NCBI RefSeq assembly: GCF_900103475.1
Contig: NZ_FNHG01000004.1
Span: forward strand, 143,105-207,104
Direction of reading: 5' to 3'
Length of the DNA stretch: 64,000 nt
DNA from: Maricaulis salignorans
GTDB lineage: Bacteria > Pseudomonadota > Alphaproteobacteria > Caulobacterales > Maricaulaceae
Shown: in pieces, positions 32,392 through 37,778 of the stretch
How positions within the stretch are numbered: the first letter of the stretch is position 1
Layout: every line of letters begins with the position of its first letter
Position numbers and translations under genes: made by a program
The notes under the pieces: model-generated
The model's input: only the letters and a program-made list of their open reading frames with translations
Database searches by the model: none
What the model was told of the DNA's origin: nothing

Positions 32392-33276
32392 ATGCTCGAC
32401 AATATCGCCCTATTCCTGCTCATCGTCGAAAAGGGCAGCCTGACCGCCGCCGGCCGCGAGGCCGGGCTGTCGCCGACCACCGTGTCGGAACGGCTCGCGG
32501 CGCTCGAAGCGCATTACGGCGTCGTCCTGCTCAACCGCACGACCCGGGCGATCAGCCTGACCGAAGAAGGCCGCACCCTGATCGAGGGCGCCAAGCGGGT
32601 GCTGGGCGAGGTCGAGGATCTCGACAGCCGGATCCGCTTTGGGGCGCAAAACCTCTCGGGCCCGATCCGCCTCAGCGCGCCCAGTGATCTGGGCCGCAAT
32701 CTCGTCTCGGACGCGGTCTCGAGCTTCCTGGCCAAACATCCCGGCATCACGGTCGAGCTCCTGCTGAGCGACAGCTATATCGACATTGTCGGCCAGGGCA
32801 TTGATATCGCCGTACGCTTCGGCGAGATCATCGACAGCACGCTGCGCAGCCGGCAGCTCAAGGCCCGGCGACGGGTGATCTGCGCCGCGCCAGCCTATAT
32901 CCAGGCCCATGGCGCGCCGAAGAAACCGGTCGATCTGAAGAGCCATAATTGTCTGCTGATGCGCTTCGGCGGCAATCTCGACAATCTCTGGCGGCTCAGC
33001 GCCAACGGGGTGAAGCAGATCGTCACCGTGCGCGGCGATCGGGTCGCCAATGACGGCGCCCTGGTGCATCAATGGGCCCTCGAGGGCCATGGCATCGCGC
33101 TGAAATCCGAACTCGATATCGCCCCCGACCTCCAGGCCGGCCGCCTCGTCGAACTCCTCCCCGACTACGCCCCGCCCCCCAGCCCGGTCCAGCTCCTCCT
33201 CCCCCCCGGCCGCACCCAGCCCCGCCGCGTCCGCGCGCTGACGGATCATCTGGCGCAGGCGATTGATGGCGCTTGA
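32392..33276 (+). CDS. LysR family transcriptional regulator
   Basis: A 294-residue regulator: N-terminal winged helix-turn-helix (FLLIVEKGSLTAAGREAGLSPTTVSERLAALEAHYGVVLLNRTTR) and a C-terminal periplasmic-binding-like effector domain. It belongs to the group with RSRQLKARRRVICAAPAYI-type text. It probably controls the divergent oxidoreductase. The last 19 bp of its reading frame lie inside the 21-bp direct repeat that reappears at 37173, at the edge of the accessory island. Confidence 0.93.
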   Translation: MLDNIALFLLIVEKGSLTAAGREAGLSPTTVSERLAALEAHYGVVLLNRTTRAISLTEEGRTLIEGAKRVLGEVEDLDSRIRFGAQNLSGPIRLSAPSDLGRNLVSDAVSSFLAKHPGITVELLLSDSYIDIVGQGIDIAVRFGEIIDSTLRSRQLKARRRVICAAPAYIQAHGAPKKPVDLKSHNCLLMRFGGNLDNLWRLSANGVKQIVTVRGDRVANDGALVHQWALEGHGIALKSELDIAPDLQAGRLVELLPDYAPPPSPVQLLLPPGRTQPRRVRALTDHLAQAIDGA

Positions 33277-33278
33277 GG
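33258..33278. repeat. Left copy of 21-bp direct repeat bounding the island
   Basis: The 21 bases beginning GGCGATTGATGG cover the last codons and stop of the LysR gene plus two bases. The identical 21 bases recur at 37173-37193. Weaker likeness (GGGGCGGC..ACATGC) continues for about 25 bp after both copies, with small gaps. Confidence 0.8.
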
Positions 33279-33488
33279 AGGGTGGGAGTGGGGGCGGCAA
33301 CATGCCCGTCATCGGTTGAAAGGAAAGACTTGCTCAGAAAGTCCGCCCGAGCGCTCAAGGCCCCGCCAGGAATCAACAATGGAAGCCTCGCGCCCGGTTA
33401 GTCAGGCACCCAAGCCCAGGATGAGGAGCATCCAACCATATTGACGTTTGGAATCCATACCTCGCTCCTTACCTATTCTTCGTCCGCG

Positions 33489-33782
33489 AAAAAACGGGGA
33501 CACTCACCACTTCGTGCCGCGAGAATCCCGTCCAGCAAACCGGCCCGAGCGGCCAGGCCCCGCCTTGAAAACCATGCCTGCATCCGGCCAGACTGGACTT
33601 GTCTCGTCAAGGGTCCTGACCGCGCAGCGGCGCTCCCGCGCCCTTGACGAGACACGTCCAGTCTGGCGCCCTGCTTGGCAAGGGTTTCAGGGATGGCTCT
33701 ACCCGGCGCGGACGCGTTTTGAAGGAGATCGCGGCTCTCAAGAATTTCGGTGCTGGAAAATGGCGTGTGTCCCCGTTTTTTT
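33489..33782. repeat. Palindromic unit A (ends AAAAAACGGGGACAC)
   Basis: About 294 bp. Inverted ends: AAAAAACGGGGACAC at the left, and the reverse complement with seven A at the right (33757-33782). The core hairpin has arms at 33588-33613 and 33641-33666, 26 bp with one mismatch, around a GC-rich loop. Outside the arms, weaker pairing continues (CCTTGAAAACCATGCC against AGGGTTTCAGGG). It is nearly the same as unit B and shares its core with unit C. No gene is seen in it. The gap 33783-33937 holds nothing recognisable except the ribosome binding site of the next gene. Confidence 0.8.
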
Positions 33783-33937
33783 GCGGGAGCGGTAAGGGGG
33801 CGTGGCGTTTGGCGCGGCTGGTTTTTTTGGGGAAACCGGATGCGATTTCAGCGGGTTGAAAAAATGTGTGCAACTGGAGATTTTTGGTTGTGCGGGCGGG
33901 AAGTGCGTTTAGGGTGGGGTGGAGATTGGGGGATGGA

Positions 33938-34810
33938 ATGCGGTATTGGGAAAGTCTCATTTTTTTGAACATCGTTATGCTGGGTCTGACCGCCTGTTCG
34001 GGCAGTGACAGCAGCGCGCTTGCGTGCACCGATTGCCCCTCGTTTGTCGAGATTCCCGCTGGCGAGATGATGTTGGGTTCCGAGCCCGGTCCCGACGACT
34101 CTGATGGCTCGATACTCTCCAGACAGAGCTACTCTATCTCAGCACCGTTCTATGCCTCACGCTATGAAATTACGCACTCAGATTGGCGTGCGTGTCGGGA
34201 CGCGGGTGTTTGTCCGGAGTCACGAGTTGGCCTGCGTATCAGATTTTGGGACCGCTTCTTCACACCCGATGAACGTGTGCCAATCACAATGCTCACGATG
34301 GGTGAGATCCAGCTCTATATCGGGTGGTTGTCTGCCCGGACCGGATTGAATTGCCGCCTGCCGACTGAATTCGAGTGGGAATACATGGCTAGAGCCGGTT
34401 CGACCGACGAATTCCATTTCGGGCCAGCCTCGACCTATCGTGACGCCAACTTTGACGATTTGGCAACTTGCTATCCTGAAGTCCCCGGCGAGCGTTGCCG
34501 ACCCGATCCTGCTGCCGACGCGAGGGATTACCGCAATTGGCTCCGGTCCGTCGGGTCATATTCTCCGAATGCGTGGGGCTTGTACGATATTCACGGGAAC
34601 GCAAGTGAGCTCACAAGTTCTTGCTCGACCGGGCCAGGTTCGGAGGCGCGCTCTGTAGCGTCAACCGATTGCGAGTATTTTGTCGTACGTGGTGGTAGTT
34701 TTGTCTCACCCGCTAGACTTTCGCGCCTTTCATCGAGGGGCGCACTCGCAAAAGGCACCTTGGATCATGTCTGGTTGGGGTTTCGACTTATCTGTGACGC
34801 AAAAATTTGA
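33938..34810 (+). CDS. FGE-sulfatase-fold lipoprotein (SUMF1-like, catalytic Cys absent)
   Basis: A 290-residue lipoprotein: signal peptide with lipobox LTAC, then a formylglycine-generating-enzyme-type domain: FVEIPAGEMMLGSEPG, YEITHSDW, RLPTEFEWEYMARAG, NAWGLYDIHGNASEL and VRGGSF, ending LGFRLICD. The C-terminal RGGSW..CR region, which in true FGE carries catalytic cysteines, reads RGGSFVSPARLSRLSSRG here, so it is unlikely to modify sulfatases. Six other cysteines may form disulfides. ATG 33938 follows GGAGATTGGGGGA. The stop codon touches a repeat end. It is inside the island and probably acquired. Confidence 0.82.
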   Translation: MRYWESLIFLNIVMLGLTACSGSDSSALACTDCPSFVEIPAGEMMLGSEPGPDDSDGSILSRQSYSISAPFYASRYEITHSDWRACRDAGVCPESRVGLRIRFWDRFFTPDERVPITMLTMGEIQLYIGWLSARTGLNCRLPTEFEWEYMARAGSTDEFHFGPASTYRDANFDDLATCYPEVPGERCRPDPAADARDYRNWLRSVGSYSPNAWGLYDIHGNASELTSSCSTGPGSEARSVASTDCEYFVVRGGSFVSPARLSRLSSRGALAKGTLDHVWLGFRLICDAKI

Positions 34811-34833
34811 AAAACTGGGGACACACGCAATTT
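34809..34833. repeat. Single repeat end (CTGGGGACACACGC)
   Basis: AAAAACTGGGGACACACGC begins at the stop codon of the FGE-fold lipoprotein gene. It is inverted relative to the right end of unit A, so the gene lies between two repeat ends that face each other. The gap 34834-34930 shows nothing else. Confidence 0.6.
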
Positions 34834-34930
34834 ATCCCTAATAATACCCGCAAGGGTTGTAATTTGAGGGGCGCATGCTAGTCTGACGGCTATGGCTCGC
34901 CAGGCGCGCATCGTACTTCCCGGCTATCCG

Positions 34931-35255
34931 AATAAATGGTGACAGGCACCAATTCTGACCGCCCGGCCATCCTCGTCGGGATGGATGGGGGCAGAGCGGC
35001 GTGCGGATCAGGCCAGCGCGGGGCCAGAGCCCGCCCTGAAAACCATGCCGGGATCCGGCCAGGCTGGACTTATCGAGTCAAGGGTCCTGACCGCGCAGCG
35101 GCGCTTCGCGCCCTTGACTCGATAAGTCCAGCCTGGCGCCCTGCTTGGCAAGGGTTTCAGGGATCGCTCTGCCGGTGCGGGCCGGGCGGGATGGGGAATT
35201 CGATTGATATTATTGATGCTTGGCCCTCCACAATGGGTGCCTGTCACCATTTATT
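34931..35255. repeat. Palindromic unit C (ends AATAAATGGTGACAGGCACC)
   Basis: About 325 bp with 20-bp perfect inverted ends (34931-34950 and 35236-35255). The core arms (35059-35084 and 35111-35136) match perfectly over 26 bp. The arms differ from units A and B at several places, and in each the opposite arm carries the matching change. The loop and the outer segment GCCCTGCTTGGCAAGGGTTT are conserved with A and B. Its ends belong to a different class from those of A and B. Confidence 0.82.
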
Positions 35256-35302
35256 TGTGGACGATGACGGGATATTGCACCAGGTATACGGAGATGCCTG
35301 TA

Positions 35303-35686
35303 ATGAATAGGATTTCATTTGTTTTGATTGGCTGTGTCGTTACATTCTTGTCTGGGATATTTTTATTGTCTTTCAAAAATAACGACCCTTACCCTGTAAG
35401 TCTTGAGCAACTGCAGAATTACCGCCGTTTTCACGACTTTGCGGGTCGATCTGTATTGGCGGCAGGTGTGTTGACGTACGATGGCGGCGCATTTTTCTTG
35501 TCAGACGAGATAGATGGACATCACTGGGTTATTGAAATCGACTTGGAAGATGCGGATATGCGCCAGTGCATGTTACAAATGGTTGGAATGAATTTCGTAA
35601 TCGTGACTGGAGACTTTTTGGCCAATGCTCGGTTGGAAAATATAGAACAGGTGACTGGCGGAGGGATTGCGTGTTTCGCGAACTGA
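35303..35686 (+). CDS. Small unknown membrane-anchored or exported protein
   Basis: A 127-residue protein: N-terminal hydrophobic helix (FVLIGCVVTFLSGIFLL, residues 5-21) and a small mature domain with beta-rich text (GRSVLAAGVLTYDGGAFFLSD...WVIEIDLEDADM...MNFVIVTGDFLAN) that could be an OB-like fold. I do not recognise a family. ATG 35303 follows GGAG at a good distance; ATG 35294 is possible. The codon choice is AT-richer than in the chromosomal genes, as expected for acquired DNA. Confidence 0.6.
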   Translation: MNRISFVLIGCVVTFLSGIFLLSFKNNDPYPVSLEQLQNYRRFHDFAGRSVLAAGVLTYDGGAFFLSDEIDGHHWVIEIDLEDADMRQCMLQMVGMNFVIVTGDFLANARLENIEQVTGGGIACFAN

Positions 35687-35774
35687 GAATTCGGAAAAAT
35701 TTGGGACAGGCGGCAAATATTAGTGGTGACAGCTTGGATTCAACCGGGCGGCGCAACGGTCCTGACAGAAATGG

Positions 35775-36230
35775 ATGGTGACAGGCACCCATTAATCCGG
35801 CCGGTCAGATCGCCACGCGTGCGACCTCCAATGACGCCAATGCCTGGGACAGGCATGTCAATCTGGACCTGCTCTACGGAAAAAAAGCGGGGACACTCAT
35901 CATTTCGTGCCGCGAGAATCCAGTCCAGCAAACCGGCCCGAGCGGCCAGGCCCCGCCGTGAAAACCATGCCTGCATCCGGCCAGACTGGACTTGTCTCGT
36001 CAAGGGTCCTGACCGCGCAGCGGCGCTTCGCGCCCTTGACGAGACAAGTCCAGTCTGGCGCCCTGCTTGGCAAGGGTTTCAGGGCTCGCTCTGCCCGGCG
36101 CGGACGCGTTTTGAAGGAGATCGCGCCTTTCAAGAATTTGGGTGCTGGAAAATGGCGTGTGTCCCCGTTTATTCTTGTAAGTCGGTATTATTGATACTTG
36201 GCTTGAAGAAATGGGTGCCTGTCACCATTT
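35775..36230. repeat. Outer unit D (GGTGACAGGCACC ends) enclosing unit B
   Basis: ATGGTGACAGGCACCCATT (35775-35793) is matched by its reverse complement at 36210-36228, 19 bp, the same end class as unit C. The right flank TATTATTGATACTTGGC also recurs just inside the right end of unit C (TATTATTGATGCTTGGC). Unit B with the other end class lies inside, giving a nested arrangement. Confidence 0.75.
35880..36171. repeat. Palindromic unit B (ends AAAAGCGGGGACAC)
   Basis: About 292 bp, close to unit A over its whole length. Core arms 35981-36006 and 36033-36058 pair perfectly over 26 bp. Left end AAAAAAGCGGGGACACTC, right end ATGGCGTGTGTCCCCGTTTA. It sits inside outer unit D. Confidence 0.8.
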
Positions 36231-36235
36231 ATTCA

Positions 36236-36466
36236 TCAACGCAAACAATGCGGCCATTCTTCGAGCACCCATTGCGATTTCTCGATGCCGAAATCCTCTT
36301 CGCCAACAAGCATTGCTATATCTAGGGTGTCTTGCAATTCATCGCGGTAGGAGACGGTCTCGTCACCCCGAAGGAAGAACACATAGAATCCCTCGGGCCA
36401 CTCTTCGATTCGTAAGGTCGTCTTCGTCCCGTTTTTGTAGACTGATGCAGTGTAACCAAGTTTCAT
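36236..36466 (-). CDS. Unknown 76-residue protein
   Basis: A small soluble protein (MKLGYTASVYKNGTKTTLRI...) rich in aromatic and acidic residues, ending in EEWPHCLR. I do not recognise it. GTGAGGA lies upstream of the ATG at the right distance. The stop codon is only a few bases from the end of outer unit D. It is inside the island, in the opposite direction to the genes at its left. Confidence 0.55.
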   Translation of the reverse strand: MKLGYTASVYKNGTKTTLRIEEWPEGFYVFFLRGDETVSYRDELQDTLDIAMLVGEEDFGIEKSQWVLEEWPHCLR

Positions 36467-36508
36467 TAATCGTCCTCACGGAATTCATAGCGATGTTGAT
36501 CGCCCGGG

Positions 36509-36599
36509 AAAAAACTGGGACACTCACCGTTAAATTTGATGATATGCCCGTTAATTCAGCTGTTTAGAAGCACCAAAATGGTGTGTATCCCCGCTTTTT
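36509..36599. repeat. Mini unit E without core hairpin
   Basis: A 91-bp element: AAAAAACTGGGACACTCACC at the left and AAAATGGTGTGTATCCCCGC followed by T-run at the right, inverted and imperfect. It has the A/B class of ends but lacks the core palindrome. Confidence 0.6.
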
Positions 36600-36633
36600 C
36601 CCGCCCATTTTTTCCAACGACTGCAACCCACCG

Positions 36634-37077
36634 CTAATGGCTTTTTCCTAGTCGCAGAATGGACACCGCAGGAACGCTTGCCTGCGCGTCGCCCGAACAT
36701 AACCCCGGCACAACGGCTTGCCCGGAAACCTCAACCAGGACATCGAGTGCATCCTCATTCACGGACCAACGTGCCTGACGAACGTCCTGAACCTGTTGAT
36801 CGGTCAACGGGACATTGAGGCAACGCCCGTAGCTCGACCCAGACCCCTGGAATACCAACAAATACTCGCCCGGCCACAACCGAACCGTCACATTTGACAG
36901 CCAAACCTGAGCACCATTCTCTACGTCGACGCCCCATTCCACAAAATCTTGGTAAGTCTCGATCACCTCATTGTTTTGGCCCATCCTCTGCGCATCATTC
37001 GAACCCACGCACGCTGTGAGAACCATGGCCAATACGAAAGCGCCTGTTAGTCGAATAACGAGTCCAGTCATCGACAT
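36634..37077 (-). CDS. Small lipoprotein of unknown function
   Basis: A 147-residue lipoprotein: signal peptide MSMTGLVIRLTGAFVLAMVLTAC with lipobox LTAC and then a polar mature domain (VWLSNVTVRLWPGEYLLVFQGSGSSYGRCLNVPLTDQQ) with two further cysteines. No family is recognised. ATG 37077 follows CAGAGGGC; the in-frame ATG 37071 is the alternative. Two lipoproteins in the same island point to an envelope role for its cargo. Confidence 0.65.
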   Translation of the reverse strand: MSMTGLVIRLTGAFVLAMVLTACVGSNDAQRMGQNNEVIETYQDFVEWGVDVENGAQVWLSNVTVRLWPGEYLLVFQGSGSSYGRCLNVPLTDQQVQDVRQARWSVNEDALDVLVEVSGQAVVPGLCSGDAQASVPAVSILRLGKSH

Positions 37078-37140
37078 GCCCTCTGCTGACCATCGGTCCC
37101 ATCTAGAGCCGGATTCGCATTCATAGCATCGGAGGAGATG

Positions 37141-37158
37141 AGTGCCTGTCACCATTTA
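37141..37158. repeat. Single repeat end (GTGCCTGTCACCATTTA)
   Basis: AGTGCCTGTCACCATTTA is the C/D class of end, as a solo copy. A second, shorter GGTCACCATTT follows at 37161-37171, directly before the right direct repeat. Confidence 0.6.
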
Positions 37159-37172
37159 GGGGTCACCATTTG

Positions 37173-37193
37173 GGCGATTGATGGCGCTTGAGG
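37173..37193. repeat. Right copy of 21-bp direct repeat
   Basis: Identical over 21 bases to 33258-33278, the LysR 3' end, but here not in any gene. It marks the right edge of the island. Confidence 0.8.
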
Positions 37194-37198
37194 GGCGG

Positions 37199-37320
37199 CG
37201 GGACATGCTCCGGCGTCCAGCCGGTGCGTGTCCCGACTTGCTGCGAGCGCGAGTGCCGGTGTTGGTGCATCACCCAAGTCGGGACACGCACCCGTTTCAG
37301 AGAAACGGGATCATGTCCCG
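37199..37320. repeat. Nested hairpins downstream of the island
   Basis: CGGGACATG (37199-37207) pairs with CATGTCCCG (37312-37320). Inside, GGTGCGTGTCCCGACTT (37223-37239) pairs perfectly with 37276-37292, and CCCGTTT-CAGAG-AAACGGG forms a small hairpin at 37290-37308. The block lies just after the right direct repeat and before the stop of the DoxX-like gene. It may be another palindromic repeat family or a terminator region. Confidence 0.6.
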
Positions 37321-37346
37321 TGTGCCACGCTAATCGCAGCCGCCCC

Positions 37347-37778
37347 TCACCGCCCCACCATCTTCAGCAACGCGTCCCGGTCCAGCCAGGCCAGCACCAG
37401 CGACAGTGCGAAGAAGGGCACCGCCATCATGAACAGCATCGGGCTGAACTCATAGCCGCCGCCGGGCGCGAAGGCGACGGGGGCGTTGATGCCGAGCCAG
37501 GGGGAGAGGTGGAAGACGAGGGCGCCGCCGGTGGCCCCGGCGGAGATCAGGGCACCGAGGCCGCGCAGGCGGCCGGTGAAGGTGGCGAGCAGGATGAGTG
37601 CGGCGGCGGCGATTTCGCTGACACCGACGACGAGGCGGATCACCGGCTCGAATAATTCAATGCCCGAATTCGCCGCGATATAGGCGAAGACCGGGTTGGC
37701 GGCGCCGAATTTCTGCACCCCCATGAAAAGCAGGAAGGCGGCGACAAGGATACCGAGGATGGCGGGAAGATATTTCAT
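37347..37778 (-). CDS. DoxX-like small membrane protein
   Basis: A 143-residue protein with four predicted membrane helices, starting MKYLPAILGILVAAFLLFMGVQKFG, with FEPVIRLVVGVSEIAAAALILLATF and FHLSPWLGI. The layout fits the DoxX/DoxX-like group. The substrate is unknown. CTGGAGCG precedes the ATG. It would have been convergent with the LysR gene before the island was inserted. Confidence 0.75.
   Translation of the reverse strand: MKYLPAILGILVAAFLLFMGVQKFGAANPVFAYIAANSGIELFEPVIRLVVGVSEIAAAALILLATFTGRLRGLGALISAGATGGALVFHLSPWLGINAPVAFAPGGGYEFSPMLFMMAVPFFALSLVLAWLDRDALLKMVGR

Follow-up and report, generated by a model that had tools for sequence, protein, structure and literature searches.

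The closest described process is template switching at replication forks. According to the available part of one account, it homogenizes the arms of inverted repeats, inverts their spacers, and depends on fork direction (PMC8604942), and the available part of another states that it can create and maintain stems, compensatory change with loop inversion being very rare in rRNA stems (PMC8794818). The Maricaulis hairpins described here share with those cases the matched arms and the inverted spacer, and would share the dependence on fork direction stated there, but the known cases are single sites, whereas the Maricaulis hairpins are multicopy and carry a conserved tip whose orientation follows GC skew genome-wide. 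KOPS, the 8-mers that guide FtsK (PMC2680272), and AIMS (PMC5993296) are, in the available parts of both sources, oriented by chromosome arm from origin to terminus, as the Maricaulis tips are, but they are 8-bp duplex words, whereas the Maricaulis element is a hairpin of ~110 bp with its polarity in the tip. MITEs and ERIC/RUP-type repeats, as far as the available text of the sources describes them (PMC2229807, PMC5896051), are likewise short, noncoding, dispersed, and intergenic; the Maricaulis core may differ from them in its lack of common terminal repeats and target duplications and of a parent transposase. REP/REPIN sequences, which are associated with RAYT (TnpA_REP), are also dispersed intergenic palindromes, and the outer ends of the three units described below resemble, by eye, short repeats that adjoin the two Y1_Tnp genes in the source genome, but the Maricaulis core is longer and has a two-hairpin tip. 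The inverted terminal repeat of AAV has a long stem with two small palindromes at its tip and exists in flip and flop forms. This likeness would be one of form only, and the Maricaulis element is internal in bacterial chromosomes. In the literature on palindromic and intergenic repeats of Maricaulis, Caulobacter, and Hyphomonas, titles and the opening lines of abstracts gave no description of this hairpin family, which does not prove that none exists.

The window is the whole 64,000-nucleotide stretch of the Maricaulis salignorans genome that was analyzed (contig NZ_FNHG01000004.1, positions 143,105 to 207,104). The initial annotation had reported three hairpin repeats with co-varied arms, and these were confirmed: the inverted arms are present, but they measure 27 nt instead of the 26 bp given there, pairing perfectly in B and C and with one mismatch in A. 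The features, in window coordinates, are as follows.

33489..33781, + strand: unit A, a core hairpin within GGGGACAC-type REP-like ends (33489-33512, 33758-33781), tip on the + strand
33587..33667, + strand: hairpin A, arms 33587-33613 and 33641-33667 (96%, one mismatch), tip 33614-33640
34931..35255, + strand: unit C, a core hairpin within GGTGACAGGCACC-type ends (34931-34954, 35232-35255)
35058..35137, + strand: hairpin C, arms 35058-35084 and 35111-35137 (100%), tip 35085-35110
35770-35793 and 36210-36233: outer pair of C-type ends, with unit B lying between them
35882..36173, + strand: unit B, a core hairpin within GGGGACAC-type ends (35882-35905, 36150-36173)
35980..36059, + strand: hairpin B, arms 35980-36006 and 36033-36059 (100%), tip 36007-36032
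36007..36032, + strand: tip of B, with linker TCCTGA, mini-hairpin CCGC-GCA-GCGG, and mini-hairpin CGC-TTC-GCG
34931-34954, 35232-35255, 35770-35793, 36210-36233, and 37137-37160: GGTGCCTGTCACCATTTA ends

Four positions, read from the sequence, distinguish the arms of A and B from those of C, and each is mirrored in the opposite arm. Single-stranded DNA folding of A, B, and C places either strand 8.6 to 10.5 SD below shuffles, and in each of the six folds none of 200 shuffles was as stable. Units A and B are 95% identical over 293 bp, whereas C and B have only the ~157-bp core in common (90%), and the ends of C differ. The outer flanks, annotated as nearly constant, are therefore not so: A and B carry GGGGACAC-type ends and C carries GGTGACAGGCACC-type ends, the core alone being common to C. 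The GGTGCCTGTCACCATTTA ends, found at C and around B, have nine matches genome-wide at two or fewer mismatches (0 for a reversed control pattern). Seven of the nine are on a single contig (C25), so the C-type ends constitute a small local family, unlike the core.

Hairpins and small genes alternate in the window, for which reason an integron attC site was considered. The ORF between hairpins A and C (33866-34810) is lipoprotein-like with an FGE-sulfatase domain (E 6.8e-32), and falls under the cut-offs of all six NCBIfam models listed. A mini-unit at 36505-36603 has GGGGACAC-like ends and 27-nt arms that are 81% complementary and 45 nt apart, the core hairpin being absent. A perfect 21-bp direct repeat (33258-33278 and 37173-37193) encloses the three-hairpin block together with its small genes; the first copy is the end of a LysR-type gene, and the second is located 3.9 kb farther. 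It is possible that the enclosed block is an old insertion or duplication.

From the outside inward, the element consists of a variable outer stem, an asymmetric internal loop that is TTGTCAGCCAGC-like on one side and TCTCGGCAAG-like on the other, a stem of 19-20 bp that is variable yet matched, often a C.C mismatch, and a TCAAGGG/CCCTTGA stem whose constancy is partly imposed by the search seed. The tip is made up of a linker of ~4-7 nt, a CCGC-NNN-GCGG mini-hairpin with mostly GNA loops, and a second mini-hairpin. GNA loops give rise to very stable DNA mini-hairpins. Among 117 distinct copies, 113 have a complementary second mini-hairpin, and its stem is CGC, CGG, CCG, or CCC in 112. Because the best predicted DNA fold of B and C merges both mini-hairpins, the branched tip is supported by covariation and not by energy. 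The pair beside TCAAGGG is C.C in 91 and G-C in 27 of the 118 copies from three genomes of the genus (G015, G009, and G018), with no other combination, and is G-C in all 14 source-genome copies viewed.

The core is present in many copies across the source genome, where 17 sites among the matches listed were used, compared to 37 two-strand matches; a partial match (C14:16119) was omitted, its flank being that of C10:116356 in reverse complement. As a sequence query the core matched 9 of 61 genomes, the source genome counted, and a match in G054 looks like a chance one within coding sequence. A covariance model built from 59 copies detected the element in 16 of the 19 genomes of the genus, within which copy number ranges from 0 (G003, G012, and G017) to more than 100 two-strand matches; 55, 41, and 24 sites were found in G018, G015, and G009, respectively. 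Among 249 genomes of the order, 42 match at E 1e-4, 11 of which belong to the genus, and several of those outside the genus arrange the stem differently around the same tip. Two of 384 other sampled genomes of the class match at E 1e-6. Flanked by unrelated arms, the tip motif was also observed in an alphaproteobacterial MAG, where the arms measure 19 bp and the outer repeat 28 bp. Records of Acidobacteria (two), Lachnospiraceae, Oribacterium, and Crickella contain it, again with unrelated arms, in less perfect form. Most matches to the tip pattern in Hydrogenophaga, Rhizobium, Pseudomonas, and elsewhere have no closing stem. No match was found in plasmids (query L156:1-155) or in phages (query window 35962-36080).

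The initial annotation held that the fold itself is kept, either because the hairpin is used or because the arms are copied from each other. In support of this, 97.5% of cells in a 59-row alignment are paired, compared to 80.2% after shuffling and 33-41% after sliding, and 317 cells show a double change (shuffle mean 79), beside five one-sided changes with pairing kept (G-U). Among the 118 copies of the three genomes, 2201 of 2242 arm pairs are Watson-Crick, 10 are G.T, 7 are A.C, and 24 are other (2 of 120 sites without an exact-seed hairpin were omitted from the arm and flank counts). A set of 78 copies, overlapping the 118, contains 7 G.T and 11 A.C. This set had been selected for pairing at 13 or more of 20 positions, and for that reason a pattern blind to the arms was also counted, which put to the test the refuting condition named in the initial annotation, namely copies with arm differences left unmatched on the other side. 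It gave 57 Maricaulis matches, 54 of them with all 19 positions: 53 of the 54 pair at 15 or more positions, 34 at all 19, and one (L080) at 10. Two of the remaining three matches are cut by the locus end and one has no closing 7-mer.

Selection on RNA should tolerate G-U on its strand. The occurrence of only five one-sided changes beside 317 double changes, together with no consistent excess of G.T over A.C, speaks for DNA-level pairing, not RNA selection, among the options that had been proposed. The tolerated wobble expected of a structured RNA on its transcribed strand was not observed, and the arms are homogenized without wobble bias, as is expected for template-switched repeats. At orthologous sites (94 pairs, not independent since species recur among them), 113 arm changes are double and 79 are single-sided. 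The latter indicate that arms do change on one side only, such changes then awaiting correction.

Relative to its internal loop and flanks, the tip points either way, even among copies of one genome. Comparison of orthologous sites across the three genomes showed it inverted in 4 of 51 pairs, consistent with the same-site spacer inversion expected of template-switched repeats, and the flank call is inverted in 3 rows. One of the four inverted pairs (G018 C7:194576 with G009 1771265) has 12 arm pairs that differ, and its orthology is doubtful.

In G015, the sampled GC skew switches sign at about 1.6 and 3.25 Mb, and in G009 it does so at about 1.47 and 3.05 Mb; dnaA lies near coordinate 0 in both. 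Origin and terminus in these two genomes were taken from the sampled skew, the origin being picked after a first look, and tip orientation agrees with skew at 31 of 41 sites in G015 and 19 of 24 in G009; with dnaA taken as the origin, agreement is 30/41 (P = 0.012) and 18/24 (P = 0.023), respectively. G018 was tested next, some of its sites having already been visible when G015 and G009 suggested the idea, and 46 of its 55 sites agree (P = 6e-7). When the three genomes are pooled, the tip agrees with skew at 96 of 120 sites (P = 5.6e-11), whereas flank orientation does not follow skew (P = 0.85). An average of 59 of 77 clusters of orthologous or duplicated sites agree (P = 3e-6), as do 32 of 45 sites without an ortholog (P = 0.007). 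In the source genome, agreement is found at 16 of 17 among the sites listed (P = 0.0003), including A, B, and C; GC skew of the window is -0.026. Calling direction by the linker alone gives P = 6e-11. In G015, G009, and G018, C.C copies agree more often than G-C copies (78/91 vs. 17/27, P = 0.013 for the difference). GC skew probably reports fork direction at each site, and the tip, by following skew, would follow fork direction. Orientation by chromosome arm is also what would be expected of a system such as KOPS or AIMS. The initial annotation, whose conclusion on the fold stands, could not see this relationship between the tip and the inferred direction of replication.

Few elements are located near the origin. 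Counts in successive quartiles from origin to terminus are 2, 8, 18, and 13 in G015 (KS P = 0.00035) and 1, 3, 10, and 10 in G009 (P = 0.005), and agreement with skew is no higher in the terminus half (23/31 and 15/20 vs. 8/10 and 4/4). In gaps of at least 150 nt, 38 sites are between convergent genes (24.1 expected by length), 52 between tandem genes (55.4 expected), and 11 between divergent genes (21.5 expected), a bias with P = 2.4e-5 by numbers; gene calls are crude, being based on third-position GC, and 17 of 118 sites have no usable gene pair. Tip direction is unrelated to that of tandem genes (29 vs. 23; 23/45 in the first set). Across the 51 orthologous pairs, identity is 0.893 in the arms and 0.872 in the core, and drops to 0.657 in the next 50 nt and 0.543 in the next 100, the arms being more conserved than neighboring DNA in 51/51 pairs. 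Three discordant tips of G015, near 0.73-0.75 Mb, have G018 orthologs that are also discordant, one of them agreeing again in G009. The discordance common to G015 and G018 suggests that any correction is slow.

We put at about one half the probability that these are DNA hairpins in which template switching at forks copies arm to arm and likewise inverts the tips, which are held facing the fork. Under such circumstances, template switching would copy one arm from the other and the same process may invert the tip, which would preferentially be held in one direction facing the fork, where a putative replication-linked protein might read it as single-stranded or cruciform DNA; the polarity could be selected, or could be just the equilibrium of biased flipping. 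That the copying machinery shapes the hairpins is likely. Inverted tips, the other known footprint of template switching, favor copying, and template switching accounts for both matched arms and flips and could yield a polar equilibrium. The conserved tip, conservation in place, and scarcity near the origin do not follow from template switching alone and fit a signal read by a protein. Several observations count against template switching: C.C persists in 91/118 copies though copying should erase the mismatch, polarity in G015, G009, and G018 is carried mainly by C.C copies (yet the 14 source-genome G-C copies viewed agree), in-place tip inversions are few, the comparable events in rRNA stems were very rare (PMC8794818), and discordant tips can stay so between species. 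The single-sided changes that are common between orthologs (79 vs. 113 double) argue against pure copying. A tentative extension of the reading is that Maricaulis and its relatives in the order carry branched hairpins whose tips are turned in place until aligned with the fork, as self-correcting polar signals for a putative replication or segregation protein.

The main rival concerns what the polarity is for and is compatible with template switching: the hairpins would be polar signals under selection, either a guide from origin to terminus, KOPS-like or of another kind, or a fork-pausing site, with a putative host protein that needs the polarity and with copying as upkeep. We regard it as possible but doubtful, given that polarity in four genomes, site counts that are low near the origin, and arms and core far better conserved than the next 50 nt are set against a range from 0 to more than 100 matches within one genus, which leaves no essential role, about one tip in five pointing the wrong way, and the lack of higher agreement in the terminus half. 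It is rather unlikely that the family is a mobile single-stranded-DNA element (IS200/IS605- or REP-like) whose polarity records insertion into the lagging-strand template. Such an element could explain a dispersed multicopy family that is expanded in some species, the near-identical longer copies A and B in the window, and discordant tips that remain discordant between species, and lagging-strand targeting by IS608/ISDra2 is described in the available part of one source (PMC6006769). However, the flanks are random with respect to skew and the tip is not, and insertion of the whole element thus fails unless the tip was inverted beforehand. Neither does the transposase follow the element as a RAYT would be expected to: PF01797 (Y1_Tnp) is present in 5 of the 19 genus genomes, including G009 and the source genome, and G018, G015, G005, G016, and G014, which have none, are the first, second, third, fourth, and seventh richest in copies. 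A RAYT as mover of the core was set aside on this distribution. Of the two tags that would mark the foot of a REP hairpin, GTAG occurs somewhere on either strand in 27, and CGTC in 79, among 118 stretches ~200 nt in length, as counts at any position and uncorrected for chance. No common neighboring gene was seen by eye in the ORF lists of other genera (L191-L212).

A transcribed structure (i.e., a terminator, an element of mRNA 3′ ends, or a small RNA) with its stem selected in RNA is highly improbable. Strong covariation and the excess of convergent over divergent gaps would be in its favor, but there is no consistent G.U excess, and tip direction tracks skew and is unrelated to tandem genes. 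The T-run expected beside the stem of an intrinsic terminator (five T in six positions, no more than 60 nt beyond the hairpin on either side) occurs at just 16 of 118 sites, and Rfam gave only three matches, all below gathering score and to microRNA models, in window 33000-37500. The reading as an RNA element was discarded on the basis of the wobble counts, the orientation of genes, and the T-runs.

Compensatory changes in stems are generally regarded as proving a functional RNA, and here they are abundant without an RNA signature. The elements could thus serve as a natural test bed for template switching, in which the tip, tracking inferred replication as neither flanks nor genes do, distinguishes processes coupled to the fork from transcription and from the history of insertion. 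If the reading of self-correcting polar signals is true, the chromosome would be marked by such signals in single-stranded form. Selected and mutational polarity can be directly distinguished by experiment in a cultivable marine bacterium.

In Oribacterium (L105, L141, and L150), the same tip motif was observed close to the end of an ISL3-type transposase. A link to ISL3 was rejected for the family, there being no ISL3 match (PF01610) in 8 of the 9 genomes searched. A pattern scan of viral contigs gave three stretches on two contigs. Two of the hairpins (L158 8737-8762 and 10938-10963) are in a contig that also carries genes for terminase, portal, capsid, and DUF2460 proteins, which we take to be perhaps a gene transfer agent cluster, and their flanks match M. 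maris sites.
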